NCBI GenBank assembly: GCA_949775045.1
Contig: OX459103.1
Coordinates: forward strand, 11,848,605-11,912,604
Reading direction: 5' to 3'
Source: Metridium senile
Taxonomy: Eukaryota; Cnidaria; Anthozoa; Actiniaria; Metridiidae
DNA length: 64,000 bases
Within the stretch, counting starts at the first letter, position 1, and each line of letters starts with the position of its first letter. Positions 4,822 to 62,000 of this stretch are shown piece by piece. Below the pieces are notes generated by a model, which saw only the letters and a program-made list of their open reading frames with translations, made no database searches and had not been told where the DNA came from. The position numbers and the translations under genes were made by a program.

Positions 4822-5092
4822 ATAACGCAGGTATCCTAAATCCAGCATTACCGCAAAAATGTATTCCGTTTACCGCAATATCGCATTAAAAAATGGCCAA
4901 TACCGCAACACCGCAAACCCCAATGTCACCCTCCTTTATGGATCACAATCTTTTGATATAACGCAGGTATCCTAAATCCAGCATTACCGCAAAAATGTAT
5001 TCCGTTTACCGCAATATCGCATTAAAAAATGGCCAATACCGCAACACCGCAAACCCCAATGTCACCCTCCTTTATGGATCACAATCTTTTGA
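4822..5092. repeat. 136-bp tandem duplication
   Basis: The block beginning ATAACGCAGGTATCCTAAAT at 4822 is repeated almost exactly from 4958, ending at about 5092. It is rich in the words TACCGCAA and ACCGCA, which also occur just upstream (4780-4800). Confidence 0.95.
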
Positions 5093-9562: not shown

Positions 9563-10150
9563 CAAAATGTTTAAACATTTACCTTCTTAAAGTTCAATTT
9601 CCGTTGTAACAGAGATGTCACGTTACATTGTCACGTTTACCCATGTTGCGCATGCGCTCATTATATTTGGGAACACGATTAGAAACGCTGTTACACAGAC
9701 GTTTCCTCCTCGTATCTTCCCGTCGGGGTAGGGTTGGGGGCGGCTGTACACAGGCTACACAGAATTACAAATTATTAGCAGCTGATATGCCGATAATGTG
9801 TTTCAATAATTGTTGTCGTGGAGTATGTTTGTTGCTTACCGAAGTTTTCTAATATAGAAATGGTATTTTAGATATATTTATTGAAAGAGAATGTTACTTA
9901 TTAAAGACGTTAGCTTCATTTGAAGTTGTATTGATTTTGCATAAGAAACCTTGATCATACAAAAGTTTGAGATATGGAATAAAAATTGGGTTCACCGTGT
10001 TGGTTTTGAGATAAACTCTGTTGAATATGTACCATTTTAACGAAAATGCTGCGCGCTTTTTAATATATACCCAATAATTTCAAATAATCGCAACAATAAA
10101 AGGAAAAATTGTCGCTTTAAAGAACGTACGTCTACTATCGTATATTAGTA
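9563..10150. other. intergenic, nothing recognised
   Basis: No supported gene. The short frame at 9628-9852 has no recognisable features. Confidence 0.4.
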
Positions 10151-10410
10151 TACACCTATCTCAATTAACGTTGTCCATCTGGAATGGTTGATCTGAGACC
10201 GATAGGAATTGTGGGAGCTCATTAAATTCCAAATACATTGTTTTAATCACACTTGAATGGTGCTGAATTACAGATAACAGTATTTCAGAAGTAAACATTA
10301 ATATTCGAGCGTGATAATAATAGTGCATATGCAGTTTAACGAGCTCCCACAATTCCTATCGGTCTCAGATCAACCATTCCAGATGGACAACGTTAATTGA
10401 AATAGGTGTA
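10151..10410. mobile_element. MITE family A, copy 1 (best preserved)
   Basis: A 260-bp element with inverted ends of about 75 bp. It begins TACACCTATCTCAATTAACG and ends with the reverse complement, GTTAATTGAAATAGGTGTA. Inside each end lies the word GGTCTCAGATCAACCATT or its complement and AGCTCCCACAATTCCTAT. The outermost TA may be the duplicated target. Diverged relatives lie at 26246-26490 and 32061-32308. Confidence 0.85.
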
Positions 10411-12069
10411 TATAGCACAAGAATGTGCAGTATCTGTTTTCACTTTTGATGTTGATTTTTCCACTTTCATATGTTTTATTGAACTTTATGATATCTTAAT
10501 TTTAAGATGAAAAAAATGGGGTTCATCGTATTCGTTTCCTAGATATTTCGGTACAAATTTGCTCGCCATCTTGTCTTTCTTCTATTATTAAAATATCCAG
10601 GCGTCCTCGCCGCGCGCAGAAAGATTGCAACGACACAATATCCGCTAACGTCCTTAACTGACGTTTTGGACCTTTTAAAATTCTTCTTCGAGAAAAACAA
10701 CAACACAAGTTTAGGTGTGTTTTAATCAAAGACATGCTTTACTCCATTGACATGCTTTACTCCAGGAAGACATTGTTTTTAATATTCAAGATGCAGGTGA
10801 TTTTACGCATGCACTTCCTGCTAGTATAAGCCAATCAGAAGCATTTTTGTCGTATGATTTGACATTAAAAAAGTCTATGGAACTTGGACAAAAAAATCTG
10901 CCGCTCTATGCCTAAATGACCGTAATCGTTTATTAAAACCTATAATGTTAGGTGTTGTTTTAAAAAAAGCAGCAGTCTAATGACTCTGCAGGATGGTCGA
11001 TCAGAAAGGAGGAAAACAACGAATAATTTCAAAATTTGAATCCGGCTAATTGTGATCGCAGTCGCTTACGGGAGACGGTCATTCAGACAGGGGCAACTGT
11101 ATGAACAAAACTTTTCAATATTTTAATTGAATGATCAGACGAACGGATGTATATTGTGGTTGCATGTTTTAACCCGCTTTTTTATTGAGATTTTCCACAT
11201 GCACACTGTTATATATTCGCATACATGATAGTATAGGGAAAATTCATCAACATACAAGATAGACAAGCTAAGAAGTTACTTATAACATATATAATTAAAC
11301 AAAGCACTAAAATCTTAATTGCAATATCTCAATATGATATTGAATTTACACTTCCATATTATTTTAATTATCTGGCCATACAGCCTGTAGATGTTAAATA
11401 TTTGCACTTGTGCGAACGCTCCTGTCACTTGTTTTATTCGTATTAACCGTAGAGTAGAGTTTGAATTAGAAGAGTATTTCAATAGTAACTTACTAGCTAG
11501 TAGATATTTCTTAACGTGGTTACAGTGGAAGATATATACCCAAATTTAACCTAATTTAAATTTGTAAATGAGTTCCAACAAACTATAGGTCATATCTTTT
11601 CTTTTTGATACATTTTTTTTCAAATTTCAATTATAACTAGCATACATTACATAAATAAGATATACAGTAAACAACATACAATTTTGACAATTACGAATAT
11701 AAATTTAGGGAAAAACAAATTTACAAAAATAGTCATAATAAATGTATATCAGCTGTATACGTAAACCAAGAATATATAATTTTGTATACATACGTATATT
11801 AACTGTACATAAACAAAATAATTTTGTTCCATTTTTCATAATGGAAAGAAAATTTCTTTTTGTTTTTTGCTATCCTAAGTTCAATATCATAAATATATTT
11901 AACCTTATGTACAAAAAGCGAAACAGAAGTACATAATTGTTTCTGACTACATTTGTATATGAAATACTTTGCTAATGATAAAATATGGTTTATGAAGACC
12001 TTATCATCACATTGTTTATAAATATCAACTTATATCCCCTATGAATATATCATAGGCTGTCAACCAACT
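10411..12069. other. intergenic, nothing recognised
   Basis: AT-rich. Short frames (for example 10523-10735 and 11742-11936) show no domain or splice context. Confidence 0.4.
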
Positions 12070-18737: not shown

Positions 18738-20219
18738 ATGTTTAAAGGGCCACGGATATTATATTGTTATAATGCTATAGTGTATAAGATAGAAAAAAAT
18801 ATAAATATATATATATATATATCCAAAAACATCGACAATAAGAAAAAATACAGCTTCATCTGCTTTGACATCGTAGAATTTTACCCGTCTATAAGCGAAC
18901 AACTCCTGAACAAAGCACTAGACTTCGCACCAGCCTACGACAGCATAACACCTGACGAAAGGAACATTATTATCCATGCGAAGAATTCACTTCTAACCAA
19001 CAAACAACAACAATGGCAGAAAAAAAGCGCCAGCACCTTCGACGTAACAATGGGGAGCTTCGACGGAGTGGAGACATGTGAACTTGTGGGAAGTTTTCTG
19101 TTATCACAACTACAACCCAAATTTGGTAACAAAATAGGGCTATACCGAGACGATGGCCTAGCACTTACTGACAGCACTCCAAGAACAGCGGAAAATATCA
19201 AGAAAGAGATCTGCCGTATATTTAAAGACAACGGCCTTAACATCACCATCGAGGCGAACAAACAAGTAGTGAATTTCTTAGATGTCACCTTTAACCTTAC
19301 TGGAAGTACTTACAGCCCATACACTAAGCCCAGCAGTACCATACAGTATATACACCGAGACAGCAACCACCCACCTAACATTATAGAAAACATACCAGCA
19401 GGAATCAACAGACGACTTTCGTCCATATCATCGGATCAACAATCGTTTGACACCGCTGCACCCCCATACCAGAAAGCACTCAATGATAGTGGATACAGCT
19501 ACAAATTAGAATTCCAACCACCTCAGACAAGCAAACGGAGAAATAGACCAAGACATGGTATCATTCGGTATAACCCCCCATTTAGCAAGAGCGTCAGCAA
19601 TAATACCGGCAAAAGATTCCTTTTACCTGTCAACAAATGCTTTCCAATTGGACACACCCTGCGAAAGATCTTCAACAGTAACCCTATTAAAATCAGTTAC
19701 AGTTGTATGAACAGTGCAAAACAAATAATCGACAACGAAAACAAGAAAAAGCTGAACTCACACAATGCCAGCCCAATCGAAAAAACAAAACCATGCAATT
19801 GCCGGAACAAAGAGAATTGTCCCCTGATGGGTGAATGCCTACAGTCGGGTGTGATATACCAGGCCAAAGTAATACGAAAAGACAACGACACACACGAGAC
19901 CTACGTCGGGTTAACCGAAAACAACTTCAAAACACGATACAGGAATCACACAGCCTCATTCCGCAACGCGTCATCCAGAAATTCTACTGAACTAAGCAAA
20001 CACGTATGGACACTCAAGGACAATAGCATCGACTACACAATCACGTGGCGCATAATGGCACGCGCCAAAGCTTACAGCAGCGCAACCAAGCGTTGTAACC
20101 TTTGTTTACTGGAAAAATACATAATTATCTGCAAACCACACCATTGCAGCCTTAACAAAAGGAATGAACTCATTTCATCGTGCAGACACAGGAATAAGGA
20201 ACTTCAGCGTTATAACTAA
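18738..20219 (+). CDS. Penelope-like RT with C-terminal GIY-YIG, 5' truncated
   Basis: A long frame encoding the palm of a reverse transcriptase and a GIY-YIG endonuclease. Real homology starts after the TA microsatellite at about 18823. Motif A is FICFDIVEFYPSIS, motif C is the catalytic YRDDG (about 19141-19155), and the thumb region contains VNFLDVTFNL. A cysteine-rich linker (CNCRNKENCPLMGEC) precedes the endonuclease (VIYQAKV..ETYVGL, then FKTRYRNHTASFRN). The RT N-terminus (fingers) is missing, so this copy is probably dead although the frame is open. The last ~590 bp are almost identical to 30194-30786, implying recent activity. A mutated hammerhead motif follows at 20281. Confidence 0.88.
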   Translation: MFKGPRILYCYNAIVYKIEKNINIYIYISKNIDNKKKYSFICFDIVEFYPSISEQLLNKALDFAPAYDSITPDERNIIIHAKNSLLTNKQQQWQKKSASTFDVTMGSFDGVETCELVGSFLLSQLQPKFGNKIGLYRDDGLALTDSTPRTAENIKKEICRIFKDNGLNITIEANKQVVNFLDVTFNLTGSTYSPYTKPSSTIQYIHRDSNHPPNIIENIPAGINRRLSSISSDQQSFDTAAPPYQKALNDSGYSYKLEFQPPQTSKRRNRPRHGIIRYNPPFSKSVSNNTGKRFLLPVNKCFPIGHTLRKIFNSNPIKISYSCMNSAKQIIDNENKKKLNSHNASPIEKTKPCNCRNKENCPLMGECLQSGVIYQAKVIRKDNDTHETYVGLTENNFKTRYRNHTASFRNASSRNSTELSKHVWTLKDNSIDYTITWRIMARAKAYSSATKRCNLCLLEKYIIICKPHHCSLNKRNELISSCRHRNKELQRYN

Positions 20220-20280
20220 AAAATCATATGTAAATTCAGTAAATCCAGTATATTCTGTACAGTTTTAATCAGTCAATTAA

Positions 20281-20332
20281 AACTCCTGATGAGTGAGACC
20301 GTAAGGTCTTACAAAACAGCGTTGTAGAGAAA
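20281..20332 (+). ncRNA. hammerhead ribozyme motif, core mutated
   Basis: Stem I strand CTC, conserved CTGATGA (20286-20292), stem II GTGAGACC-GTAA-GGTCTTAC (20293-20312, one G-U pair), then AAAA where the core needs GAAA. The short stem III/cleavage region (GTA) and GAG follow. The G-to-A change in the second core box should abolish cleavage. Hammerheads are known from Penelope-like elements, and this one lies 60 bp downstream of the GIY-YIG frame. Confidence 0.75.
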
Positions 20333-26500: not shown

Positions 26501-33167
<6,667 letters not shown>

Positions 33168-34600: not shown

Positions 34601-36895
34601 AAATATACTTCATTTAAAATATATATATTAGTTGTGCACTAAGAAGTAACATTTTATTCATTTATAACATACTTGTGCCCAAAAATATATATTCAAGCAT
34701 TGTGTATATGGGCCACCGTAGTAAGTAGTGTCTTAACAGTTTAATTATACCAACATTCTTAGCTAATTTGTTATGGATACATGCAATATGATAATCCCAT
34801 TTTAGGTTTTTGTCGAGATATACTCCAAGGTATTTAATGCAGTCTTTTTGTTTAAAAAGGTTAAGAGGGCGTCTCAGTAAGAACGGACCACTCGGTCTGG
34901 GATCCAAAAAATGATTTCCTTTATATTTCTACCATCGAAAGTACTATCTATCCTTATTACAAAACTGGACTTAGAATTGTTCTAAATAAAATATTTCGGC
35001 CGCTAGGCGAATTTTCGTACATCGACCCAAAAACCGCCGAAGGACGCTGATTTTCAAGTTCGCAGAGGCCTACTTTCAAAGTCCATTTTCTCGGCTTTTT
35101 CTTGAAATGAAAACTTATTTTTTGGGTCTAAACTATGGTTTGACGTCTCGTCTGACTAGAAAAAGCAAAATATTTCTTTAGGATGTACAAATTACGAAAA
35201 GTTATTTAAATTTATCGAGGCTACATTATGCGTGACACGAAAAGCAAAGATTAACGGGTCTAGAAAATTGCAAATTTCTCAAAAGTGCAACCTATCCCCG
35301 ATATAAAACATCATTCTACCTTGAGATGAGATGCTATTTAGTAGTTCTGTGCAATAAAATTTGTGGCACATTGCGTTTTGAAGAATTTGACGAAGCCCAA
35401 ACTTGTACATTTTTCCAGATATTTCCTTGCGTGACACGACTTGCCGTTGAGTCTAGACAACGTCAATCCTTATAAAAAGTAAAAAATAACAAATAATAGC
35501 TAGAAGTTTATATTCAGGTGTTACTATCCGTCATAATTAGATATTTTAGCTCCATTAAAATTTTACCACAATAATGTTTTTTTTTAATGAACAATTTGCA
35601 TAATTATATGCCGAATTCAAGTTGTCTAACAATATTCACATTTAAACAAAGATTTATATCTAGAAAATCCTCGTCTATTAATCTTGAAACATGATTGTCA
35701 TATTAAGTTGGATAAAACCTGGATGTTTTTTAAATCTTTTATATATTTTAATTGAGTTGCTTTATGAGATTATACAATTGTGCACGATACAAATATGATT
35801 CACCATGATGCATGTTTTTCTCTAAATGTGCTAAATAGCGGTGATGCCATTTTTCTTTTTCTTCTTTTAAAAAAAAAATCAGAGTTGATAGAAAGCGACT
35901 TGATTCTTCTACGAGTAAGAACACGAGTGAACACGAGTGAAAAAATAAAATAAGATAATAAAGAAAAAATGAAAGAAAAAAAATAGAAATGAGAAAATAA
36001 TGGAAATGAAAAAAAAAAGACGAAAACAAACCCCGAAAATAAGCCCAAACAGGCATGAATGTATCAAATGTATGCAAATGCACATTTAAAAAAAGTACAA
36101 TATAATGTCTATCCCGTGAACGGTTCAATGGGATTGAGAAGGTAGGGGGCCTTTCCCCTTCCTTCCCTATCCCCTTCCCCTCCCTTCCCCTCCCCAATCC
36201 CCTCGAACCGTTCACAGACTATATAAAGTCAATTTAATGCATCGAAAATTGATAAGGATTATAATTAACTATATAAAGTTTGAGATCACAATGTTTCCAT
36301 AAAGTATAAATAAACGTGTTACGCCTATTTTAAAAGAATCCATGGGATTGAACAAGAACACATATGACATAATGGTAATATGGCACACCCTGCACCTGAT
36401 TTGTCTTGTATCACAGCCAAAGCCGGATTTTGATTGCATTGCTATTTGATAGCTATATACGTTAAGGTAATTGGCTACTTTTGAACGCCTTTTGGAGTTT
36501 AACAATATTTTCAAAAGTAGCCAGTCACCTTAAACATTTGTTAAACATTGTGATTTCAAATTTTATATAGTTCATTACAAGTAATTCAGTTCAATTTTTG
36601 ATGCATTATATTAACATTATACTGCATTTGTTAACGTCCATTTGCATGGACTGCCGTAATTAATTGTGAAACGATAATTTTTGAATATGAATTCATTAAA
36701 ATCCTATTATTTCTTCTTTTTATTTCTGTTTATTAAACTATAATTCTATTTTTCAAATATTTTAGTAATACCACTAGCTTTGATACATTCATGTCTAGTT
36801 GGGCCTATTTTTTTTGGTTATTTCTTTTTTTCTTTTCTATTTGTCTCATTTTCATTTTCATTTTTTCATATTCATTTATTATTTCATTTCATTTT

Positions 36896-37168
36896 TGCTA
36901 CTCGTGTTCACTCGTTGCTCATGTTTACTCGCGTTCACTCGTGTACACTCGTGCTCACTCGTGTTTACTCATGTTCAATCGTGTTTACTCATGTTCAATC
37001 GTGTTCACTCGTGTTCACTCGTGTTTCCTCGTGTTCCGACTCGTGTTCACTGGTGTTCATTCGTGTTCACTCGTGTACACTCTTGTTTAATCGTGTTCAC
37101 TCTTGTTTACTCGTGTTCACTCGTGTTTACTCGTGTTCACTCGTGTTTACTTGTGTTCTGACTCGTGT
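36896..37168. repeat. ~10-bp minisatellite (TCGTGTTCAC)n
   Basis: About 25 imperfect units of TCGTGTTCAC/TCGTGTTTAC in the right arm of the foldback element. The matching place in the left arm (35915-35942) has only two or three units. Confidence 0.9.
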
Positions 37169-37954
37169 TGAGTTTTAGACGACATCTCCAAATCAACAAT
37201 ATGCAAATATGTATTAGTCATCGACATCCAAGCGAGCACCAAGAACCTGTCGCTATCCACAGCTGATCAATGTGATCAATGTTGACATGTCAAAAGCAAT
37301 GAAAGTCGATTTTCAATGTTACTGTCGATTTTGTTCACGTGAGTATTTGTTTACACCCTTTCGAATTTTTTAAGTGAAAATATTTGTATATAGTCTATGC
37401 ACAAGCAGCCCAACAAGTTGACCTGAGAATCTTAAGATCCAATAAAATTAACATTTTGTTATTCTTAGAGCGCGCGGTTTGGCTTCCTATGTTGATTGGT
37501 TTGACATATCGTCATTACATTCATTTAACTGGACCAACTCTGTAGTTCCTCTCCAGCAGCGTATTTTACAAGCTGATGTATAACTACAAAGACTAAAATC
37601 CATTCTTTCACAAGATAGTTTTACTCACTGCAAACTTGGTGCAACACGATAGTTTTACTCACTGCAAGCTTGGTACAACTAATTAACAAACTGTAAATTT
37701 GTAAATTTCATTTCTGAAGTCATTAATAATTCATGACAAAAGTAGTCTGGCAAAGACAGCCATGTACTGTATTTAATAAATCATTGATAATTTACAAATT
37801 ATTGTATCGAAAGGCTTTATTCTCTTTAGATATTAATTCAGACTTTTAAAACATTAAAAAGTTCACCGCTATTTTGCATATTTAGTATAAAACATGCATC
37901 ATGGTGAATCATATTTGCCTCGTTCTCATAAAACAACTCAGTTAAAATAAATAC

Positions 37955-38613
37955 GCTGGGCTGGCAGTGTACTGAAATCGGCGTTTTTAAGCGTGATTTT
38001 GAATAACTTTTTATAGTTAAGTCGGATCAACTTCAAATTTTATATGTGAAGAGTACACACCAAAAGAAAATATTTCTTCTTTTCACTTTTACAAATGTTA
38101 CGATTTTTGGCGGGAAAATGATGTCACCAATTTTAGTGGGAAATTGAAATAAGGGGGTTATGCAAAATTTTAAAATGCGCATTTGAAAGAACTCATTGAG
38201 ATATGTTCAAAACCAAAGAGATAACAGTCAGAGTCAAATTTAATCAAAATATATGATTTTTTGAAGTTTAGAATTTTTTTCTATTTTACACAAAAATGCA
38301 ATTTTCAAAAAATTATAACTTTAGATTAAATTTGACTTTGACTATTATCTCTTCGGTTTTGAACGTATCTCAATGAGTTCTTTCAAATGCGCATGTTAAA
38401 ATTTTGCATTACCCTCGTTTTAGATTTTCCTCTGAAATTGATGACGTCATTTTCCCGCCAAAAATCGTAACATTTGTAAAAGTGAAAAGAAGAAATTTTT
38501 TCTTTTGGTGTGTACTCTTAACATATACAATTTGAAGTTGATCAGACTTAACTATAAAAAGTTATTCAAAATCACGCTTAAAAACGCCGATTTCAGTACA
38601 CTGCCAGCCCAGC
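37955..38613. mobile_element. nested foldback element
   Basis: A 659-bp inverted repeat beginning GCTGGGCTGGCAGTGTACTG and ending with its complement. The arms (37955 to about 38235 and about 38325 to 38613) are nearly identical, with a spacer of about 90 bp. It lies inside the right arm of the 4.6-kb foldback element and breaks its pairing, so it is younger. Confidence 0.88.
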
Positions 38614-40670
38614 TTGAAAAGATTTAAAAGCCATCCAGGTTTTATCCAACTTAATATAAGAATCATGCTTCATTGATTAATAGATGAAGATTTTCTAAAT
38701 ATAAAACTTAGTTTAAATGTGAATGTTGTTAGACAATTTGACTTAACTTTGACATATAATTATGCAAATTTTTCATTAAAAAAAAAACATTATTGTGGTA
38801 AAATTTAAATGGAGCTAAAATATCTAATGATGACGGATAGTAACACCTGAATATAAACTTCTAGCTATTATTTGTTATTTTTTTATTTTTGTAAGGATTG
38901 ACGTTGTCTAGACTCAACGGCAAGTCGTGTCACGCAAGGAAATATCTGGAAAAATGTACAAGTTTGGGCTTCGTCAAATTCTTCAAAACGCAATGTGCCA
39001 CAAATTTTATTGCACAGAACTACTAAATAGCATCTCATCTCAAGATAGAATGATGTTTTATATCGGGGATAGGTTGCACTTTTGAGAAATTTGCAATTTT
39101 CTAAACCCGTTAATCTTTGCTTTTCGTGTCACGCATAAAGTAGTCTCGATAAATTTAAATAACTTTTCGTAATTTGTACATCCTAAAGAAATATTTTGCT
39201 TTTTCTAGTCAGACGAGACGTCAAACCATAGTTTAGACCCAAAAAATAAGTTTTCATTTCAAGAAAAAGCCGAGAAAATGGACTTTGAAAGTAGGCCTCT
39301 GCGAACTTGAAAATCAGCGTCCTTCGGCGGTTTTTGGGTCGATGTACGAAAATTCGCCTAGCGGCCGAAATATTTTATTTAGAACAATTCTAAGTCCAGT
39401 TTTGTAATAAGGATAGATAGTACTTTCGATGGTAGAAATATAAGGGAAATCGTTTTTTGGATCCCAGACCGAGTGGTCCGTTCTTACTTCGACGCCCTCT
39501 TAATATTCATAGTTATTTTTTTGTTTGTCGAGGTTACGATCATGTAGTTAGTCTTTTTCATATTAATCGACAACTTATTCATTATACAATACTTCATAAT
39601 TAGTTCTAGGTCTTCGTTGATGACTTGTTCAATTATAAGCGGGTTAGTGTGTTAAAAAAAAAATAGTAATGTCATCAGCAAAGATACGAAAGCTTAGTCT
39701 TTTTGATACATTAGGTAAGTCATTGATATATAATAAAAATAGCAATGGTCCTAAAGTGGAGCCTTGTGGAATTCAACAAGTAATTGTTTTATGAGAAGAT
39801 GTTGCTTCATTTATTTTAACAAATTGCTTACGATCTAAGCTAAGCCCCTGATACCGTACTTATGTAGCTTCATTAGTAAGATTTCATGATTAATTATATC
39901 GAAGGCTTTAGAGAAATCTAAAAATATACCACATGTGGTTTCTTTCTTATATATTGATGTATTTAATTTATTTGTAATTTCTAGCACTGCTTGCTCGGTT
40001 GAATGGTTCTTTCTAAACCCAAATTGATGTTCAAATATTATGTTGTGTTGTCTAGAAAATGAATGAGCTGATTGTAGACTAATCTTCAATTCGTGAACTA
40101 AAGTATGCTTTCTTAGATTTTTTATCAGATTGTTTAGCATATTGGAGCTGAGTAAGTTTTATAGGCAGTCATCTTTTAGGGATCATCATGTATGAAGAAA
40201 TGCGTTTTATACATTTTTTTTTTTTTTCTTATTGACTGTAATAGTCCTGGAGTTAACCATGGTTTTCAATTCTAAATTGTTTTGCTTTGTTTTTCGACAT
40301 TTTCTTCATAGGAGCATGCTTATCGATAACTTGTTGTATTTTGTTTTGTAACAATTTGTCCAGCTAATTGTGTTCAGTTCATCAAGATAATGCGTATTAC
40401 TAAAAACTTTATAGTTCCTATAATATGCGTTTAGAATGTGATTTTTTACTCTATTCTGATTTATGATGCAAAATACTGGCAAGTGGTCTGATACATCGGC
40501 CGTCAATATACCTGAGGTTATAGTACTGTTGAAAACATTAGTGTAAATGTGATCAATATCAGAGTTGCCGAATGATCAGTTATTCTGGTGGGCTTTGTTA
40601 TTATAGGATAACAATAGTTAGCATAAAGCATGTTGATATAATCCTCTGTTTGTGGATGTTTATGTAGTAT

Positions 40671-41190
40671 GTAAAAAACGAGCAGCAGTGTTTTATCAAG
40701 GATAAAAACCCGAGCGCAGCGAGGGTTTTTGATCCTTGATAAAACACGTGCTGCGAGTTTTTTATATAGCTTAAAAAACTCCAACACTTATTCAAAACTA
40801 AATTATAAAAGTTTCTTGAAGAAAAGTCCAATTTGGAGACAAAATTTATTTGCAAGGTACAATGCGCATGCTCATATCACACCATGCACCATTAAGCACC
40901 ACATTTGGCATCCCATATTTGAGAAAGGTCGTGTATAATATAGTAGGATATTGATAGCATTGTTTCGGGTGATGCCTCTAGTAAAGGTCAATGATGAGAG
41001 ATTAAAACTGAGACCTTTACAAGTGTCATAGGTACATAAAGACACACGTACCTTTATCATAAAGACACATGTGTTTTTATATAATGTACCTATGGCAGTG
41101 TTTTATGGGGTATAAAGGTCATGCATGTGACCAAATTGGAATGCCCCGATTGGACTGATAGCTTATGAATTATTAATGAGTTTTTTAACT
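40671..41190. mobile_element. MITE inserted in the LINE endonuclease
   Basis: About 520 bp separate two halves of the LINE frame (…ILGDINI… ends near 41195; …HPQTEDYINMLYANY… resumes at 40660). The ends are roughly inverted (GTAAAAAACGAGC / GAGTTTTTTAAC). Inside are a strong hairpin at 40683-40752 (GTTTTATCAAGGATAAAAAC arm) and a second inverted motif around 41025-41080 (CATAGGTACATAAAGACAC). Edges are approximate. Confidence 0.6.

Positions 41191-42880: not shown

Positions 42881-42914
<34 letters not shown>
42878..42914. repeat. poly-C tract
   Basis: A run of more than 30 C abuts the left edge of the large palindrome. It is a likely weak point for sequencing or assembly. Confidence 0.95.
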
Positions 42915-42916
<2 letters not shown>

Positions 42917-43298
42917 CCAAAAAAACAAGAGTTCTGCAACATGTGCTCCCGTGGGAGCAGGGGAGTCAAGCCATGGGAGCCATCCCATCGGAGCCACGCT
43001 ATGGGAGCCGGGGTGTATATCACGCTATGGGAGCTGTTCCGTCGGAGCCATGTCATGGGAGCTTCGACAGTGAGCTATTTTAAGTCACACAATCTGATTT
43101 GTAGATTTAATTATTTATTTCATATTACTCATTTTTTTTTTTTCATTTCCTATATTTTAATAATTTCCATTTTTTGCCGATTTCATATATATATATATTT
43201 TTTTCTAATATTCGATTTCATTCTTTAAACTTACGATATTTTACTCGATTTATTTAATTTTATAGATGGTATAAAAGATTTTTCCAAATAAATTGAAG

Positions 43299-43368
43299 TG
43301 CCAACGCTGAGGCTCGAACCCTTGAATGCATGATCCGGAGACCAGATCATTACCATTACGCCACGACA
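43299..43368 (-). repeat. tRNA-like sequence, left palindrome arm
   Basis: A Pol III A-box-like TGGCGTAATGG and B-box-like GGTTCGAGCC lie at tRNA spacing, with a five-base-pair anticodon-type stem (GATCT/GGATC). The acceptor and T stems pair poorly and the base before the anticodon is not T, so it is tRNA-derived rather than a working tRNA. Confidence 0.45.
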
Positions 43369-44092
43369 GAAACGTATTGTTATAACCGAGAAGAAAAAGG
43401 CTTTTATTCAAAGTCTTTTGTTATCATCTTCATTAATTTATTCGAAATGGCGGGTGTGGTATTGTATGTTAATCCTTTAATCCTTTGTTTATCTTAAAAC
43501 CTACTAGATTGTGAAATAATTGAAGCTCGAAAACTTCGATAACTTTCTTTTTTGGTTAATTCTGCAATTGATGATCGCTAAATCAATGTTGTGCGTGAGT
43601 TTTTAGATATATCTTTTACTAGTCCTTCCTGGAATAACAGCTGGTCAAATAAGCTCGATCGATTTGATTAAAATAACTTAGTCAAACCTGGAATTGGTTT
43701 CAGTCGATCTATTTAGTACGTTCTGTGTTATTGCACCATCATCGTGAAACATCTTGTCCAACAAGTCTTAGTCAAATCTATTTTAGTATCATAATAAATT
43801 TGATCGATCTCTTGGTTATAAAAACGGACCGCTTGATCGCTAACAATACAGCAAAGAAGTGTCAAACAGTCAATATAATTTTATTCAAAAATCTCACCAC
43901 AGGGAGCCCAAATATTTCACCACGGGGAGCCCATGGAAATAAATAAACATAGCTTCAAATGTAAATCATGACTTTGGGTGTCCTGATTGTACCTCAGCAG
44001 TTGATTAGAGCTTCTATAGTTCTTCAGATTATTTACTATAGGCATTATAACAATATAATAAGAATATCTGTAAAATAGCCCCATCTGGATTG

Positions 44093-44546
44093 ATATCGTT
44101 AGCCTAGCTATTAGCCTAGCTATTAGCAATTAATAGCCTAGCCTACTGGCTATCGTTAGCCTAGGCTACTGGCTATCGTTGGCCGAGGCTACTGGCTATC
44201 GCTAGCCTAGTCTACTGGCTATCACTAGCCTAGGCCACTGGCTAGCAATAGCCTAGGCTACTGGCTATCGCTAGCCTAGGCTACTGGCTAGCAATAGCCT
44301 AGGCTACTGGCTAGCAATAGCCTAGGCTACTGGCTATCGCTAGCCTAGGCTACTGGCTATCGCTAGCCTAGGCCACTGGCTAGCAATAGCCTAGGCTACT
44401 GGCTATCGCTAGCCTAGGCTACTGGCTATCGCTAGCCTAGGCTACTGGCTATCGCTAGCCTAGGCTACTGGCTAGCAATAGCCTAGGCTACTGGCTATCG
44501 CTAGCCTAGGCTACTGGCTATCGCTAGCCTAGGCTACTGGCTATCG
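44093..44546. repeat. 23-bp satellite array, left arm (18 units)
   Basis: Unit CTAGCCTAGGCTACTGGCTA plus three bases. Each unit contains the 12-bp palindrome TAGCCTAGGCTA. Two unit types alternate (CTATCGCT and CTAGCAAT endings). Confidence 0.95.
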
Positions 44547-44791
44547 CTCACGGCTCATTGATACTGCTCAGCTGCTCAACATACGAGAGGGCCACTTTGC
44601 ATGTTTCTTGCACAACATTTGAAAAGTGGCCCTCTCATATGTTGAGCAACTGAGCAGTATAATTGAGCTGCTCATGAGCAACTCATGCTTGCTCAACATA
44701 TGAGAGGGCCACTTTTCAAATGTTGTGCAAGAAACATGCAAAGTGGCCCTCTCGTATGTTGAGCAGCTGAGCAGTATAAATGAGCCGTGAG

Positions 44792-45305
44792 CGATAGCCA
44801 GTAGCCTAGGCTAGCGATAGCCAGTAGCCTAGGCTATTGCTAGCCAGTAGCCTAGGCTAGCGATAGCCAGTAGCCTAGGCTAGCGATAGCCAGTAGCCTA
44901 GGCTATTGCTAGCCAGTAGCCTAGGCTAGCGATAGCCAGTAGCCTAGGCTAGCGATAGCCAGTAGCCTAGGCTATTGCTAGCCAGTAGCCTAGGCTAGCG
45001 ATAGCCAGTAGCCTAGGCTATTGCTAGCCAGTGGCCTAGGCTAGCGATAGCCAGTAGCCTAGGCTAGCGATAGCCAGTAGCCTAGGCTATTGCTAGCCAG
45101 TAGCCTAGGCTATTGCTAGCCAGTAGCCTAGGCTAGCGATAGCCAGTAGCCTAGGCTATTGCTAGCCAGTGGCCTAGGCTAGTGATAGCCAGTAGACTAG
45201 GCTAGCGATAGCCAGTAGCCTCGGCCAACGATAGCCAGTAGCCTAGGCTAACGATAGCCAGTAGGCTAGGCTATTAATTGCTAATAGCTAGGCTAATAGC
45301 TAGGC
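44792..45305. repeat. 23-bp satellite array, right arm (21 units)
   Basis: Reverse complement of the left array. The outer ten units match the left arm in the order of variants; the centre-proximal part has ten units against seven on the left. Confidence 0.95.
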
Positions 45306-46039
45306 TAACGATATCAATCCAGATGGGGCTATTTTACAGATATTCTTATTATATTGTTATAATGCCTATAGTAAATAATCTGAAGAACTATAGAAGCTCT
45401 AATCAACTGCTGAGGTACAATCAGGACACCCAAAGTCATGATTTACATTTGAAGCTATGTTTATTTATTTCCATGGGCTCCCCGTGGTGAAATATTTGGG
45501 CTCCCTGTGGTGAGATTTTTGAATAAAATTATATTGACTGTTTGACACTTCTTTGCTGTATTGTTAGCGATCAAGCGGTCCGTTTTTATAACCAAGAGAT
45601 CGATCAAATTTATTATGATACTAAAATAGATTTGACTAAGACTTGTTGGACAAGATGTTTCACGATGATGGTGCAATAACACAGAACGTACTAAATAGAT
45701 CGACTGAAACCAATTCCAGGTTTGACTAAGTTATTTTAATCAAATCGATCGAGCTTATTTGACCAGCTGTTATTCCAGGAAGGACTAGTAAAAGATATAT
45801 CTAAAAACTCACGCACAACATTGATTTAGCGATCATCAATTGCAGAATTAACCAAAAAAGAAAGTTATCGAAGTTTTCGAGCTTCAATTATTTCACAATC
45901 TAGTAGGTTTTAAGATAAACAAAGGATTAAAGGATTAACATACAATACCACACCCGCCATTTCGAATAAATTAATGAAGATGATAACAAAAGACTTTGAA
46001 TAAAAGCCTTTTTCTTCTCGGTTATAACAATACGTTTCT

Positions 46040-46109
46040 GTCGTGGCGTAATGGTAATGATCTGGTCTCCGGATCATGCATTCAAGGGTTCGAGCCTCAG
46101 CGTTGGCAC
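46040..46109 (+). repeat. tRNA-like sequence, right palindrome arm
   Basis: Mirror copy of 43299-43368, same A- and B-box-like words, now on the plus strand. Confidence 0.45.
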
Positions 46110-46533
46110 TTCAATTTATTTGGAAAAATCTTTTATACCATCTATAAAATTAAATAAATCGAGTAAAATATCGTAAGTTTAAAGAATGAAATCGAATATT
46201 AGAAAAAAAAATATATATATATGAAATCGGCAAAAAATGGAAATTATTAAAATATAGGAAATGAAAAAAAAAAAATGAGTAATATGAAATAAATAATTAA
46301 ATCTACAAATCAGATTGTGTGACTTAAAATAGCTCACTGTCGAAGCTCCCATGACATGGCTCCGACGGAACAGCTCCCATAGCGTGATATACACCCCGGC
46401 TCCCATAGCGTGGCTCCGATGGGATGGCTCCCATGGCTTGACTCCCCTGCTCCCACGGGAGCACATGTTGCAGAACTCTTGTTTATACCCTACTTGGATC
46501 CGCCCATGATTTTATTAATCACTTTCAGAATGT

Positions 46534-48112: not shown

Positions 48113-48500
48113 CTTTTTTGTCTAAGGGACGGACCATTAGAAAAACACGGAAGGGGGGGGGGGAGGGGGTGTGGGTGACAATTCCCAAAAAAAATTCGTG
48201 CAGAGGAATATTGTGAGAAAAAAAAATCCTGCATGCAGGGGAATGTTGTGAGGAAAAAAAATCCTGCAGGGAATCAAGACCCCAAAAGAAAGACTTGAAC
48301 CCCCCCCCCCCCCCCCCCCCCAAAAAAATCCTGCAGACATTTGTCTCCGAAAAAAAAAATTTGAACATGTTCAAACCCTATGATAGTCCATGATAGTGCA
48401 TGATAGTCGATGATAGTCAATGATAGTCTATGATAGTGCATGATAGTTGGTGGTCAAACGCACATGATAGTTGGAACTATCATCTACTATCATGAACTAT
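48113..48500. repeat. low-complexity: poly-G/poly-C runs and TGATAGT repeats
   Basis: A G-rich run (48151-48170), two copies of a short AAAAATCCTGCA-type unit, a C run at 48301-48320, then about seven degenerate repeats of CATGATAGT(C/G) at 48380-48470. Open frames here (poly-Gly, Pro) are artefacts. Confidence 0.8.
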
Positions 48501-48587: not shown

Positions 48588-48831
48588 ACACAAGATAAAC
48601 AACTGATCACAGTTATAATCTGCAAATTGGACTCATTTAGAGCATGTATAGTTGTTGTTTTCAATTATTCTGCAGTCTAGGGTGAACGACTGGGAGCTTG
48701 CACTTTTTTACACAAGATAAACAACTGATCACAGTTATAATCTGCAAATTGGACTCATTTAGAGCATGTATAGTTGTTGTTTTCAATTATTCTGCAGTCT
48801 AGGGTGAACGACTGGGAGCTTGCACTTCTGA
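48588..48831. repeat. 122-bp tandem duplication
   Basis: The block starting ACACAAGATAAACAACTGAT is present twice in direct orientation (48588-48709 and 48710-48831), essentially identical. Confidence 0.95.
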
Positions 48832-49497
48832 AGCAGTTCGTTTTGTGGATGGAATTGCGCAGAATTTCTGTGGTTCGCTGAAATGACACTTACAGGTTTG
48901 GTTTAAGGTGGGAAGTTAAATTAATTAATTCATAATGTTGGTTAGTTAAATTAATTAATTCATAAAGTCGGAATTGAACGTGAAAAAGTTTCGCTTCGCA
49001 CCTACAGAGAAGAAAAAATCGCAAAATTTAATTGGCGAAATGTGTATTTAATTTAATATGTTTACCATATTAAATATCTTCATAACGTATATTTATTTTT
49101 GTTTTTCGATTCTGTCTTCTGGGTCATGGAACTACCTAAAAACATCTTCACATCGCGATACTGCCGCCATTGTTTATCTTTTGAAAACCGGCGCTTTTCT
49201 CAAACATGGACTTTCACCAATATGGACTATCACCGGTATCGTAGCCATTGCAGGATTTGTGATAGACCACAGGTTGGTGGACACTTAGTATGGTTATATG
49301 TAGACTACTTTGATTTAATTACGTACTGATCAATGTACTAGATTGCAAATACATATAGGATATTATAAAGTTCTCAAATATTAACAGCGTATATTTATGC
49401 ATTTTACCACTATAAACTGTCTTAAACAGGATCTTGAATCTTTAATTAAAACAAGTTTGGAGTTTTCATTTTTTTTCATAGGATACTTATCGATATT
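48832..49497. other. intergenic, nothing supported
   Basis: No gene called. A 39-bp direct repeat (GGTTAGTTAAATTAATTAAT-containing) lies at about 48900-48965. Confidence 0.4.
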
Positions 49498-50258
49498 TTA
49501 CAGCGATATTCGTTGTATCGCGACCTGCTGTTTGAAAACTTCGGTTTGATTTGGTCTTTTGTGGACCGTCAATCAACTAGGGGGCGGAGTTATATAATGG
49601 TTAGCCGCTGATCATGAGCTATATATAGGACACATGACATTTCCGAGCGAAACTTAGATCGTTGTATAATTTACTAACAAATGAAAATTACTCATTAATA
49701 AACCACAATATAGACCATTAAAAGTTTGTAATGTCTGCTTTATTACCTCATGTGTTGTATTACGCTTTACGAAGTCCGAAACCCCCAATAAATAGACAAA
49801 ACGTTTGAAAACCCCAACGACAACAACCTGCTGGTTGACAATTTAGCTTAGGTACCTAGCCTTTTTAGGCAAAAAGCTTAGCTGCCGAGCCTGGGTCAAA
49901 GTAGATCAACGTTCGTTTGATAACCAGCGGGTTGTTATCGTTGGGGTTTTCAAATGCTTTGTCTATTTATTGGGGTTTTTGGACTTCGCAAAGCGTAATG
50001 CAACACATGAGGTAATAAAGCAGACATTACAAACTTTTATTGGACTTTATTGTGGTTTATTAATGAGTAATTTTCATTTGTTAGTAAATTATACAACGAT
50101 CTGTTTCGCTCGGAAATGTCATGTGTCCTATATATAGCTCATGATCAGCTGCTAACCATTACATAACTCCGCCCCCTAGTTGATTGACGGTCCACAAAAG
50201 ACCACATCAAACCGAAGTTTTCAAACAGCAGGTCGCGATACAACGAATATCGCTGTAA
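49498..50258. mobile_element. foldback element, ~335-bp arms
   Basis: Begins TTTACAGCGATATTCGTTGT and ends with its reverse complement. The arms (49498-49834 and 49923-50258) are nearly identical; the spacer is about 90 bp. No coding capacity. Confidence 0.92.
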
Positions 50259-50359
50259 AGAAACATTTGCAACAAAACACTTCACGATGTGGAACTCATA
50301 CTACTGAAATTATATGGTTTATTCAAACTTCTCTCGAGTAGTGTGTGGATTTTTCCGGG

Positions 50360-50517
50360 TACAGACCCTTTTAATAAGTCCCGAAGTGTTGTGTTTTCCG
50401 CGCTTGACGTCAAATTTATTATTTTCAATTCCTTTCATATTATACAAATTTCAAAAGAATAAATTTGACGTCAAGCGCGGAAAACTCAACACTTCGGGAC
50501 TTATTAAAAGGGTCTAT
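50360..50517. mobile_element. small palindromic MITE
   Basis: Arms of about 60 bp (AGACCCTTTTAATAAGTCCC.. to GCGCTTGACGTCAAATTTAT and complement) around a 36-bp AT-rich loop. Confidence 0.9.
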
Positions 50518-50612
50518 AGGTTCAGGTTTTTATACCTCTTCGCATACCTATCTAAAACGAGGCCGAGTACCCCCAATCCAACCATCTCCCGGGTCAGTAG
50601 CCCCCTATTTAG

Positions 50613-59063: not shown

Positions 59064-62000
59064 ATGCCTAAACGCAAAGCAAAGCGCTCTGTTAGCCCAA
59101 ATCCTAAAAAACGAATCAAAAAGGAAGATGTGAGTACAATTTTAACATTGAAATGGCCATTAAATCATGCTAATTTTGCGTTGTTATTTCATACGAACAC
59201 ATTTTCAGTAAACTTGTGTGAACTTGCGGTTTTTCATAGTTTAGCTGTGAATACAGCCAATAAACTTCAAAATGGTTTTAAAACACTATATCTAAGGCAT
59301 GTTAATACCTCAAAAGTATGTTATTCTGGGATATGCTGAAAATTGTTGTAATAACTGCCGTTCTTTTTATTGCAGGAATCAACACCAAAATTGTCGCACG
59401 AGATATCAGACTACGAAAAGAATATTTTGGAAAATATCCGTAGAAACAATGAACTGTTAACCGAGTTGAACATCTTTCAGGTATAGCCTTTGCATGAATA
59501 CCAATAAAAAATAGAAATTGTTCCCATTTTCCACAAACTCACTCAAGTCCCATAGTTCCATATGGTGTTGAGCTCAAATTCCATTCCAATTTCAATTGTT
59601 TTATTAAAGGCCCTCTTGCATCCAAGGTGCATTGCAGCCGTTTGTTTATGTTTTGAAAATATCTATTGTTAAAAGTCGCTCTCTAATTGGTTAGAAAACC
59701 GATCCCGCAATGAGGGCTACTCACAGGTTTTTCCCGTTGTTTGATTCAGGCTGTCAAGTTCGAAGACTTCGAAGTGTTTGTCGTTTCGTGTACTAAAAAA
59801 ATGATATTATGCATGGAATCCGAAACGTTAATGTCCATGGATATTACTGCAGAAGGTCAGGATGACGACGTGAATGCATACGATTCAAAAAATGATTACA
59901 TAAACATCAATACATTCAATATACTGTTTCATTTTGATGGCTTTCTCGAGTGTTGTTTAAAAAACCATTTCACTATGACAAACATATTTCGGATTATAAC
60001 AGCAGTTGAGTTTTCATTCCTTGTATCAACGTTGACACGATGCAGTAGGACTTCCACAAATACACTATCGGCGTTTCTTTTGAAGCCAAGTATGATTTTT
60101 TATCTCCCTGAATAGGTCGAACATAGAGCTTCTGATCCTTTATAGACATTTAGGTCGCCCGGGAAGATGACGGACCTTCCACGACGTCGGGTCGACATTT
60201 ACATCAAATATAAGTATAAAAAAGGCCGATACGACTGAAATATTATCCCAGAAAGCTTTATTAGATATTAACTTATATATACATTTTAAAAGATATGAAA
60301 ATTAACTTTTATAACGAACGATGGAAATAGATATAATTGGATATTACTTTTCTTCACAAATATTGCTATTTTCCGTATGTGAGAAAATCATCGAAGCGCG
60401 CAATGCATCTTGGATGCACCTGGGGCTTTAAAACATTACATTTTTTTTATATGTGATTCCTGTTTGAAATGCCAATTTCCCAACCCCCTCCCCCTGGAAC
60501 CTATCACAGCAACAGAATAATATAACTAGACAGGTGTGATTGAAATTACTCAAAATGTTAACTACATTAGTTGACAAAATGGTGTAGTTTTGTGTCATGT
60601 GCTCAGGTGTCATGTTGGAACAAGGGATCACAACCAAACTGGTCTTCCTGTGGCGATGACAAATGTGAGGGGTGGCGAATGGTAAATCCTAGACATCGAG
60701 ACGTACCTTTTAAATCCAAGACTGAGATTATAGTTTATTAAAATTGAATAAGATTCCAAGACACAAAAAGCAAATGAAAAACAAGACTCCGAGACTAAGC
60801 GTACAAAGGACGAGATTCTGAGACTTGGCCATTTTTTTCTGAGACTTTTACTTTTTGGGGGGTACAATTTGCCACCCCTAATGTGGTTTCAACAGAAAAA
60901 TGCTCATAAAAAGACTCCCTTAGAAAGAGTGATTGGCATAGCTTTTAGGGTTGAAAATAAAACCTCCCCCCCCCCCCCCCCCCGGAAAATACTATAAAAA
61001 ATACATGTGGAATGTAGCTTTTAAAAACCTTTTGACAATCCACAAGATCATGCAAAGAAAATGCAAATCTATTCATCCAAATAGACAAATGTTTAAAAAT
61101 AGTAAAAATAATAAAAACGTTTAATTATCTATTTAATTCATACTAATGCTCAATGTCATGGTAAACTGCTGGTCAAAACAATGCAACAAGTACGATACAA
61201 AGACCAGTTTCTGCCATGCTCCCTTGGAAGAGAGTTTCATTTTCAACATTTTACACAGAAAATCCAATATGCAACAGTGTTTGATTAGATATACTGAATT
61301 GAAATGCGTTTGGTGTATAAGTGAAATACAGATACATGAAAATTGTTGGGTTCAATTCCCACCAAGGGCATATGATATTTTTCTCATGTATCTGTGTTTG
61401 ATATATTTATTTTATATTTTACTTGTGTTTCCACAGGTAGCCCAAACATTGTATAAAAGTAGTAGGAGCATGTTTTTATTGGTTATATGTTAACTTAATG
61501 AATTTGTACTGTAGGTTAGAAATGATCTGCGACTACCAAAAGCGACAAAGAAGAAACCTGTCAAGCCTGTTAAGTGAGTTTTTAATCTCAAAATAGTAGA
61601 AGCATATACAATCTTTGTCAGAAGTAGTTGGCAGGATTTTAGTATTTTATCTCATAGTGACTACTTCATTTATTATAAGTATAAAAAAAATGTAACCCCT
61701 CCCCTCCCCCTCCCCACACATCAATGTTGGTGTGAAATGATAGCGCATTGACAGGTCAACCATATAAGCACCAAACAGAGACTCCCTCCTCAACCTTGCG
61801 AAAGGTGGTGGGAGGAGTAGTAGAATTTCAGCAGTCCTAAAATGACTTTATCACATTCATGCCAACACTTACAGAGTCTTTCTCATGGCAATTTTTGACA
61901 AGAAAATGAGAGGCTCAGGCAATTAACTTTGTTCCACATGCACTAAAATTTTCAATTTATTGATTAATTAAATCAGTTTAATTAATTCCCTGCTACAATC

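Follow-up and report, generated by a model that had tools for sequence, protein, structure and literature searches.

A near-perfect 3.6-kb palindrome of Metridium senile belongs to a dispersed foldback family whose outer arms probably derive from a Polinton

How does a chromosome come to carry a 3.6-kb palindrome whose two arms match almost letter for letter, and what keeps those arms alike? The palindrome in question lies in a 64,000-nucleotide stretch of DNA from the sea anemone Metridium senile (assembly GCA_949775045.1, contig OX459103.1, positions 11,848,605 to 11,912,604), which we call the window and which is G000:C9:11848605-11912604 in our coordinates for the 389-Mb, 169-contig genome. 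A preliminary description had offered three options for it: very young DNA, DNA that is actively maintained (as a foldback element or through gene conversion), or an artefact of assembly. We find that the palindrome is one member of a dispersed, mobile family of mirror-image elements, and we put at roughly 0.7 the probability that it is a non-autonomous, snapback-type derivative of a Polinton/Maverick element whose arms are equalised anew at each replication.

Local alignment of the two halves places the left arm at window positions 42923-44649 (1727 bp, forward strand) and the right arm at 44689-46484 (1796 bp, reverse strand), so that 42923-46484 forms a near-perfect inverted repeat. This self-alignment bears out the 3.56-kb palindrome described before, including its outer coordinates, but the unpaired spacer (44650-44688) measures 39 bp instead of 44 bp and the element itself extends to 46494, for a total of 3.57 kb (42923-46494). 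Its right end is intact and carries the family terminus AGTAGGGTATAAACAAGAGTTC (46473-46494, reverse strand); at the left end about 10 bp (AGTAGGGTAT) are missing. Only two substitutions separate the arms (43197/46210 and 44560/44778), along with indels of 23 and 46 bp that correspond to one and two units of a 23-bp satellite, leaving the right arm with three extra units. The unequal satellite copy number had been noticed earlier; the homopolymer differences reported alongside it are absent from the arm alignment. As in the foldback class, inverted repeats make up nearly the whole element and tandem repeats lie inside it, and the other palindromes listed in the window are all smaller, none matching this one in both length and fidelity. 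No stop-to-stop frame overlapping the palindrome exceeds 123 amino acids (shorter frames were not scanned for domains). The element is thus a derivative and not an autonomous Polinton, which would have PolB, integrase, ATPase and capsid genes of its own.

The palindrome has many relatives. With one arm (1626 bp) as the query, the genome yielded at least 113 matches, mostly as facing plus/minus pairs a few kilobases across (40 of 186 candidates scored), and we compared 20 places around such pairs together with 15 further stretches. Most of the 22 elements whose ends were compared, the window copy included, share the terminus AGTAGGGTAT; in the relatives the ends form an inverted repeat, AGTAGGGTAT...ATACCCTACT, of which the window copy has the right side only. 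The strict (AGT)2 end repeat is not present in the foldback termini. The proposal to look for copies ending at the same words was therefore fruitful, with the amendment that the end word proper is found 10 bp beyond the edge first noted and is missing on the left. A genome scan with the 22-bp pattern AGTAGGGTATWWAYRAGAGYTC found 95 sites, 45 forward and 50 reverse, against none for the reversed pattern; the window holds one match, and 100 shuffles of it hold none. These sites form 41 forward-to-reverse pairs of 2.2-37.6 kb, with 11 sites unpaired and one further pairing, 942 kb apart, that we take as chance. A perfect 6-bp target-site duplication flanks 17 of the 22 elements with both ends compared, among them the Polinton C9:16545801-16559171 described below. 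Four copies with common flanks on C10 retain 4-5 of the 6 letters; these (L024, L025, L027 and L028) have near-identical flanks, occur in both orientations about 0.1-1.2 Mb apart, and represent segmental duplications or inversions that contain foldbacks. Joining the flanks of 13 pairs revealed no empty site among the compared loci.

These copies also bear on whether the palindrome is a mirrored read or a mis-join. A run of 33 C, present in the assembly, adjoins the damaged left end (42882-42914, forward strand), where it and AACCAAAA replace the outermost ~10 bp, and the window copy has neither the left terminus nor the duplication, all of which could be expected of an artefact. Runs of 22 C (48300-48321) and 18 C (60966-60983) elsewhere in the window indicate that poly-C is not peculiar to the palindrome's left edge. 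Moreover, contigs of about 16-66 Mb carry 14 further compact foldbacks, which have distinct flanks and a perfect 6-bp duplication each, and the window arms are unequal in satellite copy number. For the family, dispersed copies with target-site duplications rule an artefact out, and for the window copy we consider it highly improbable. Among the original options, the dispersal, the common terminus, the duplications and the sister arm pairs described below bear out a maintained foldback element.

Where did the arms come from? Their outer part is probably of Polinton origin, a derivation that is well supported by sequence comparison and that the preliminary description had not recognised. The 13.4-kb Polinton C9:16545801-16559171 has the family terminus at its ends, the duplication ACTATC on both sides, and terminal repeats of 183 bp with 99.5% identity. 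Its right end is homologous to the first ~930 positions of the window arm (86% identity across 948 aligned bases), a segment that corresponds to window 42923-43852 on the forward strand and to its mirror copy at 45555-46494 on the reverse strand. Past this homology the Polinton enters a gene with matches, in a 333-amino-acid piece, to two domains, DNA_pol_B_2 (29.3 bits, cut-off 25.8) and Endonuclease_7 (26.2 bits, cut-off 23.6); the piece has no PDB match, and no Pfam match to the first 262 amino acids of the gene was better than E 0.05. Deeper in the element, at 16552397, is an ATPase match (44%). The left end has only the 183-bp repeat in common with the foldbacks and, beyond that repeat, matches no other compared locus. 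Because the arm matches the polymerase-side end only, both termini of the palindrome represent the same Polinton end, a one-sidedness that we read from this one Polinton, the one read at both ends. Two further elements carry the polymerase-like gene: C1:21841578-21855697 (95%), which also has an ATPase match and the arm segment at its left end (the only end read), and C10:17589911-17602630 (90%). Against viral contigs, four DNA patterns gave no match and three proteins no relative.

All nine AGTAGGG pairs of 4576-4902 bp, including L052 (G000:C1:492614-497342), contain a packaging-ATPase-like match, with a 510-amino-acid open frame in seven of them. The ATPase pieces of L052 stay below the Pfam cut-offs and match PHROGs weakly, so the name rests on their relatives, four of the six scanned passing the Pox_A32 cut-off. 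L052, the only one of the nine to be read (2 kb of it), also holds an intact tRNA-Trp gene and a satellite of about 25 bp. These Polinton-ended elements may be gene-carrying satellites.

Inward from its end, each foldback arm consists of the Polinton terminal repeat, ~750 bp of polymerase-side subterminal region with a transfer RNA (tRNA)-like remnant inside, a 0.24-kb core, the satellite, and at least one hairpin of ~116 bp. Across 15 foldbacks, identity to the Polinton end drops from 0.71 at window 43813-43872 to 0.57 in the next 60 bp and to 0.40-0.47 beyond, which puts the junction between Polinton and core near 43850. The core (43860-44085, forward; mirror at 45322-45547, reverse, located by self-alignment and core search) is at least 94% alike in all 40 scored genomic matches (of 63 candidates) and letter-perfect in 14. 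The satellite follows, with 18.0 copies on the left (44134-44548) and 21.0 on the right (44790-45273), both arrays annotated on the forward strand. The central hairpin unit (44553-44668) is palindromic in itself (83%) and faces its mirror at 44689-44785 (genome match G000:C9:11893293-11893389). This hairpin has at least 208 matches at no fewer than 33 candidate places in the genome; at least five of these lie outside any terminus pair (C11:16770328, C11:16861012, C1:21473331, C3:17785984 and C10:15723234), so that the hairpin is not confined to elements with both strict termini. Among 15 elements inspected, the spacer linker is present at the centers of L019 and L022 and, as a variant or inverted, at or near those of L043, L009, L015 and L034. 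Inner arms vary, as L034, L042, L043 and one arm of L040 resemble the window arm only up to position 633 of the compared region.

We then asked how alike the two arms of one element are, compared with the arms of others, over the stretch that matches window 43071-44090. Within one element, the median difference between the arms is 0.20% (mean 0.49%); between left arms taken from different elements it is 8.3% (minimum 0.32%). The arms of an element pair as sisters in 19 of 21 cases, all but L024 and L025 of the C10 set, and a second tree with support values, built on the outer ~780 columns, likewise pairs the arms in 19 of 21 (L025 unpaired, L032/33 not resolved). Nine of the 21 have arms 0-0.1% apart over 616-1020 sites and lie further from other elements; five show no arm difference at all. 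Sixteen elements have any difference, and from 15 of them we classed 79 within-arm differences, leaving out the eight of L025. Fifty of the 79 are private to one arm; by comparison, 1607 of 7105 between-element differences are seen nowhere else (Fisher p 2e-14, a guide only, as sites are non-independent). Such an excess of private differences is what one would expect of arms that start out equal and acquire mutations after insertion, and the arms indeed look as if they had been identical when inserted.

A snapback cycle would account for this pattern. Polintons replicate by protein priming. A Polinton would supply the protein-primed polymerase and the integrase in trans, and either end of the palindrome could serve as a replication origin. 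The displaced single strand would fold into a hairpin in which one arm templates the other, and the replicated palindrome would then be integrated with a 6-bp target-site duplication. With arm copied from arm, near-identity within elements becomes automatic. The element itself may have started as an inverted duplication of one Polinton end, and its movement would depend on Polinton enzymes.

The main rival is gene conversion after insertion. In that history, an ordinary foldback or miniature inverted-repeat transposable element (MITE) arose by one recombinational inversion of a Polinton end, spread as DNA via the Polinton integrase, and had its arms kept alike by conversion, with no snapback replication. 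Consistent with it, elements that hold nested inserts or lie in segmental duplications diverge more (L032/33 1.81%, L024 1.40%), but another nested element, L029/31, differs by just 0.22%, and conversion would have to be near complete in the nine elements whose arms are 0-0.1% apart while differing more from other elements. We judge this history unlikely, though well worth keeping in view.

Several observations weigh against the snapback derivation that we prefer. Ordinary conversion is another way in which arms could stay alike. Of the 79 within-arm differences, 29 involve variants that other arms (near copies counted) also have, as conversion or mixing would leave them; L024 and L032/33 hold 17 of these 29, which fits conversion, mixing or near copies. 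The window copy itself has lost its left end, and its duplication agrees in one of six letters. Of the parent ends set against the window arm, the nearest is no more than 86% alike. In a first genome search for DNA_pol_B_2 (90 of 226 candidates scored), the 50 matches all fell outside AGTAGGG pairs, which seemed to speak against Polintons until the direct reading of C9:16545801-16559171 reversed the impression. Beyond arm position ~1000 the foldbacks have no resemblance to the Polinton end, and none of the 40 scored core matches lies in C9:16545801-16559171 or C1:21841578-21855697. The lack of a scored core match in these Polintons, together with the divergence of the inner arms, means that no known Polinton gives the element by simple snapback. 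Because the foldbacks share this core, the copies go back to one common core; they did not each arise anew as snapbacks of the Polintons examined. Grouping the two Polinton ends as one clade gave p 0.43 in the approximately unbiased (AU) test, which allows one origin as well as several. Different Polintons may later have exchanged outer ends with the foldbacks. A tentative extension, to which we give a little less than even odds, is that the foldbacks form a long-lived lineage of satellites of Polintons: replicons that are palindromic, have a core of their own, replicate as self-templating hairpins and use the replication and integration, and perhaps the packaging, machinery of Polintons.

Two other parents were considered and rejected. 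On C1, the pair 120742-134600 encloses RAG1_imp_bd (27.2 bits, cut-off 23.3) and RING domains between its arms, which would make a Chapaev- or N-RAG-TP-like transposon the source of the foldbacks. The nested-insertion junctions show that the RAG1-N/RING gene is not part of the foldback element; it belongs, as do DUF1280 frames, to a separate element, starting CACGGCTG, that has inserted into one arm. Elsewhere there are 12 more matches to the gene at 98-100%, of which 11 are full length and one covers 295 of 324 amino acids; none of these lies inside a terminus pair. We therefore consider a parent of this kind barely credible. In its own right, this Chapaev/N-RAG-TP-like transposon (C1:~121902-133016, loci L032/L033 and L044-L051) has 13 gene copies that are 98-100% alike, 12 of them full length and none with internal stops; one copy of the transposon is nested in a foldback arm. 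A 19.9-kb pair on C3 likewise proved not to be a parent, its arms being foldback arms that enclose a BEL/Pao element along with other sequence.

How does the family compare with known systems? Like Polintons, it has 6-bp duplications and AGT...ACT termini, and a parent with the same ends has DNA_pol_B_2 and ATPase matches. Unlike them, the window element is 3.6 kb long, has no frame above 123 amino acids, starts AGTAGG instead of AGTAGT, and derives both of its ends from one Polinton end. Vertebrate Mavericks are reported to be 12.7-24.6 kb long, with 6-bp duplications, (AGT)2 or (AG)3 ends and terminal repeats of 46-1447 bp (PMC8097293). For foldback elements a mobilising parent is often not known, as illustrated by Tetris of Drosophila virilis, which resembles our family in its long inverted arms, inner tandem repeats, non-autonomy and several rearranged forms, and departs from it in its 8-10 bp duplications, assignment to Mutator and lack of any autonomous copy found (PMC4079207). 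Our family, with 6-bp duplications, falls outside the 8-10 bp expected of a Mutator-type element and has a Polinton with the same ends in the same genome. Neither Dada nor IS3EU is known to carry PolB or a packaging ATPase. Dada makes 6-7 bp duplications (PMC3706591) and IS3EU usually 6-bp ones (PMC10045372), as our family does; unlike our family, IS3EU ends in TA..TA (PMC10045372) and Dada targets specific small nuclear RNA or tRNA genes (PMC3706591).

For the mechanism, the closest analogy found is with the snapback genomes of adeno-associated virus; similar products also occur in adenovirus. By this analogy the 3.6-kb palindrome resembles a defective "snapback" virus genome in heritable form: it is an inverted duplication of one parent end, as judged from the one parent read at both ends, with an inner core that does not come from that end. 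The viral snapbacks, too, are self-complementary halves of a parent replicon that replicate with helper functions (PMC8235507). They differ in belonging to a parvovirus and in coming from virus particles (PMC8235507); here we deal with chromosomal insertions that have a core and a satellite of their own.

Foldbacks and Polintons are each well known already. In the literature searched, as far as its accessible parts extend and with subscription papers and Repbase outside its scope, we found no foldback or palindromic Polinton derivative. The presence of a Polinton with the same ends in the same genome suggests a simple route to long near-perfect palindromes, the copying of arm from arm in linear-DNA replication, and offers a natural setting for asking whether an animal germline can retain defective genomes of virus-like elements that depend on a helper. 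If the snapback derivation holds, the foldbacks would be inherited snapback genomes, each insertion starting with identical arms, so that arm divergence would form a clock like that of long terminal repeats (LTRs) and would date insertions. Polintons would then have non-autonomous followers, as LTR elements and cut-and-paste transposons do.

The arms also carry tRNA-like motifs. A scan for box A and box B of RNA polymerase III found one match in each arm (43311-43363, reverse; 46044-46096, forward), no other in the window, and none in 40 random sequences. This part aligns to the intact tRNA-Trp of the 4.7-kb related element L052 with a score of 28, compared with at most 22 in 500 shuffles. ARAGORN found no tRNA in the window and none in 26 of 27 loci, the exception being L052; a very relaxed run returned only many low-threshold matches, and the Rfam tRNA model had no match up to E=5 in the window element. 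The arms thus appear to hold only motifs and a weak similarity, not a real tRNA.

A transcript across the palindrome would fold into a very long hairpin, which raises the idea of a transposon-derived locus used by the host as a source of small RNAs. Weak microRNA-precursor matches do occur in the central hairpins and the satellite (all 27 below the Rfam cut-offs), but dispersed copies with duplications and five elements without any arm difference mark a mobile family, and we give the idea next to no weight.

Elsewhere in the window, a 4.6-kb segment (34861-39503) with 887-bp inverted ends that are 95.8% alike and TTAA at its edges is a foldback-like element of a different kind; a palindrome at 37955-38613 adjoins its right arm. 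Shorter palindromes, 80-90% alike, occupy 49497-50259, 50360-50518, 10149-10412 and 40668-40768, and the three of these four that start with TA look like MITEs. Two tandem duplications with 100% identical copies (4822-5092 and 48588-48827, periods 136 and 122 bp) are possibly recent or assembly-related. A duplicated segment (19629-20285 and 30196-30854, 97.7% identical) overlaps two related open frames, the longer of which has a weak reverse-transcriptase match below the cut-off. The best named relatives of three proteins searched are all cnidarian, in keeping with an anemone-like host: a Nematostella tetraspanin (70%), an Actinia receptor (43%) and an Actinostola ATPase-like protein (83%). 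The left flank of the palindrome contains parts of a retrotransposon of the long interspersed nuclear element (LINE) type, recognised by FP-domain and reverse-transcriptase matches.

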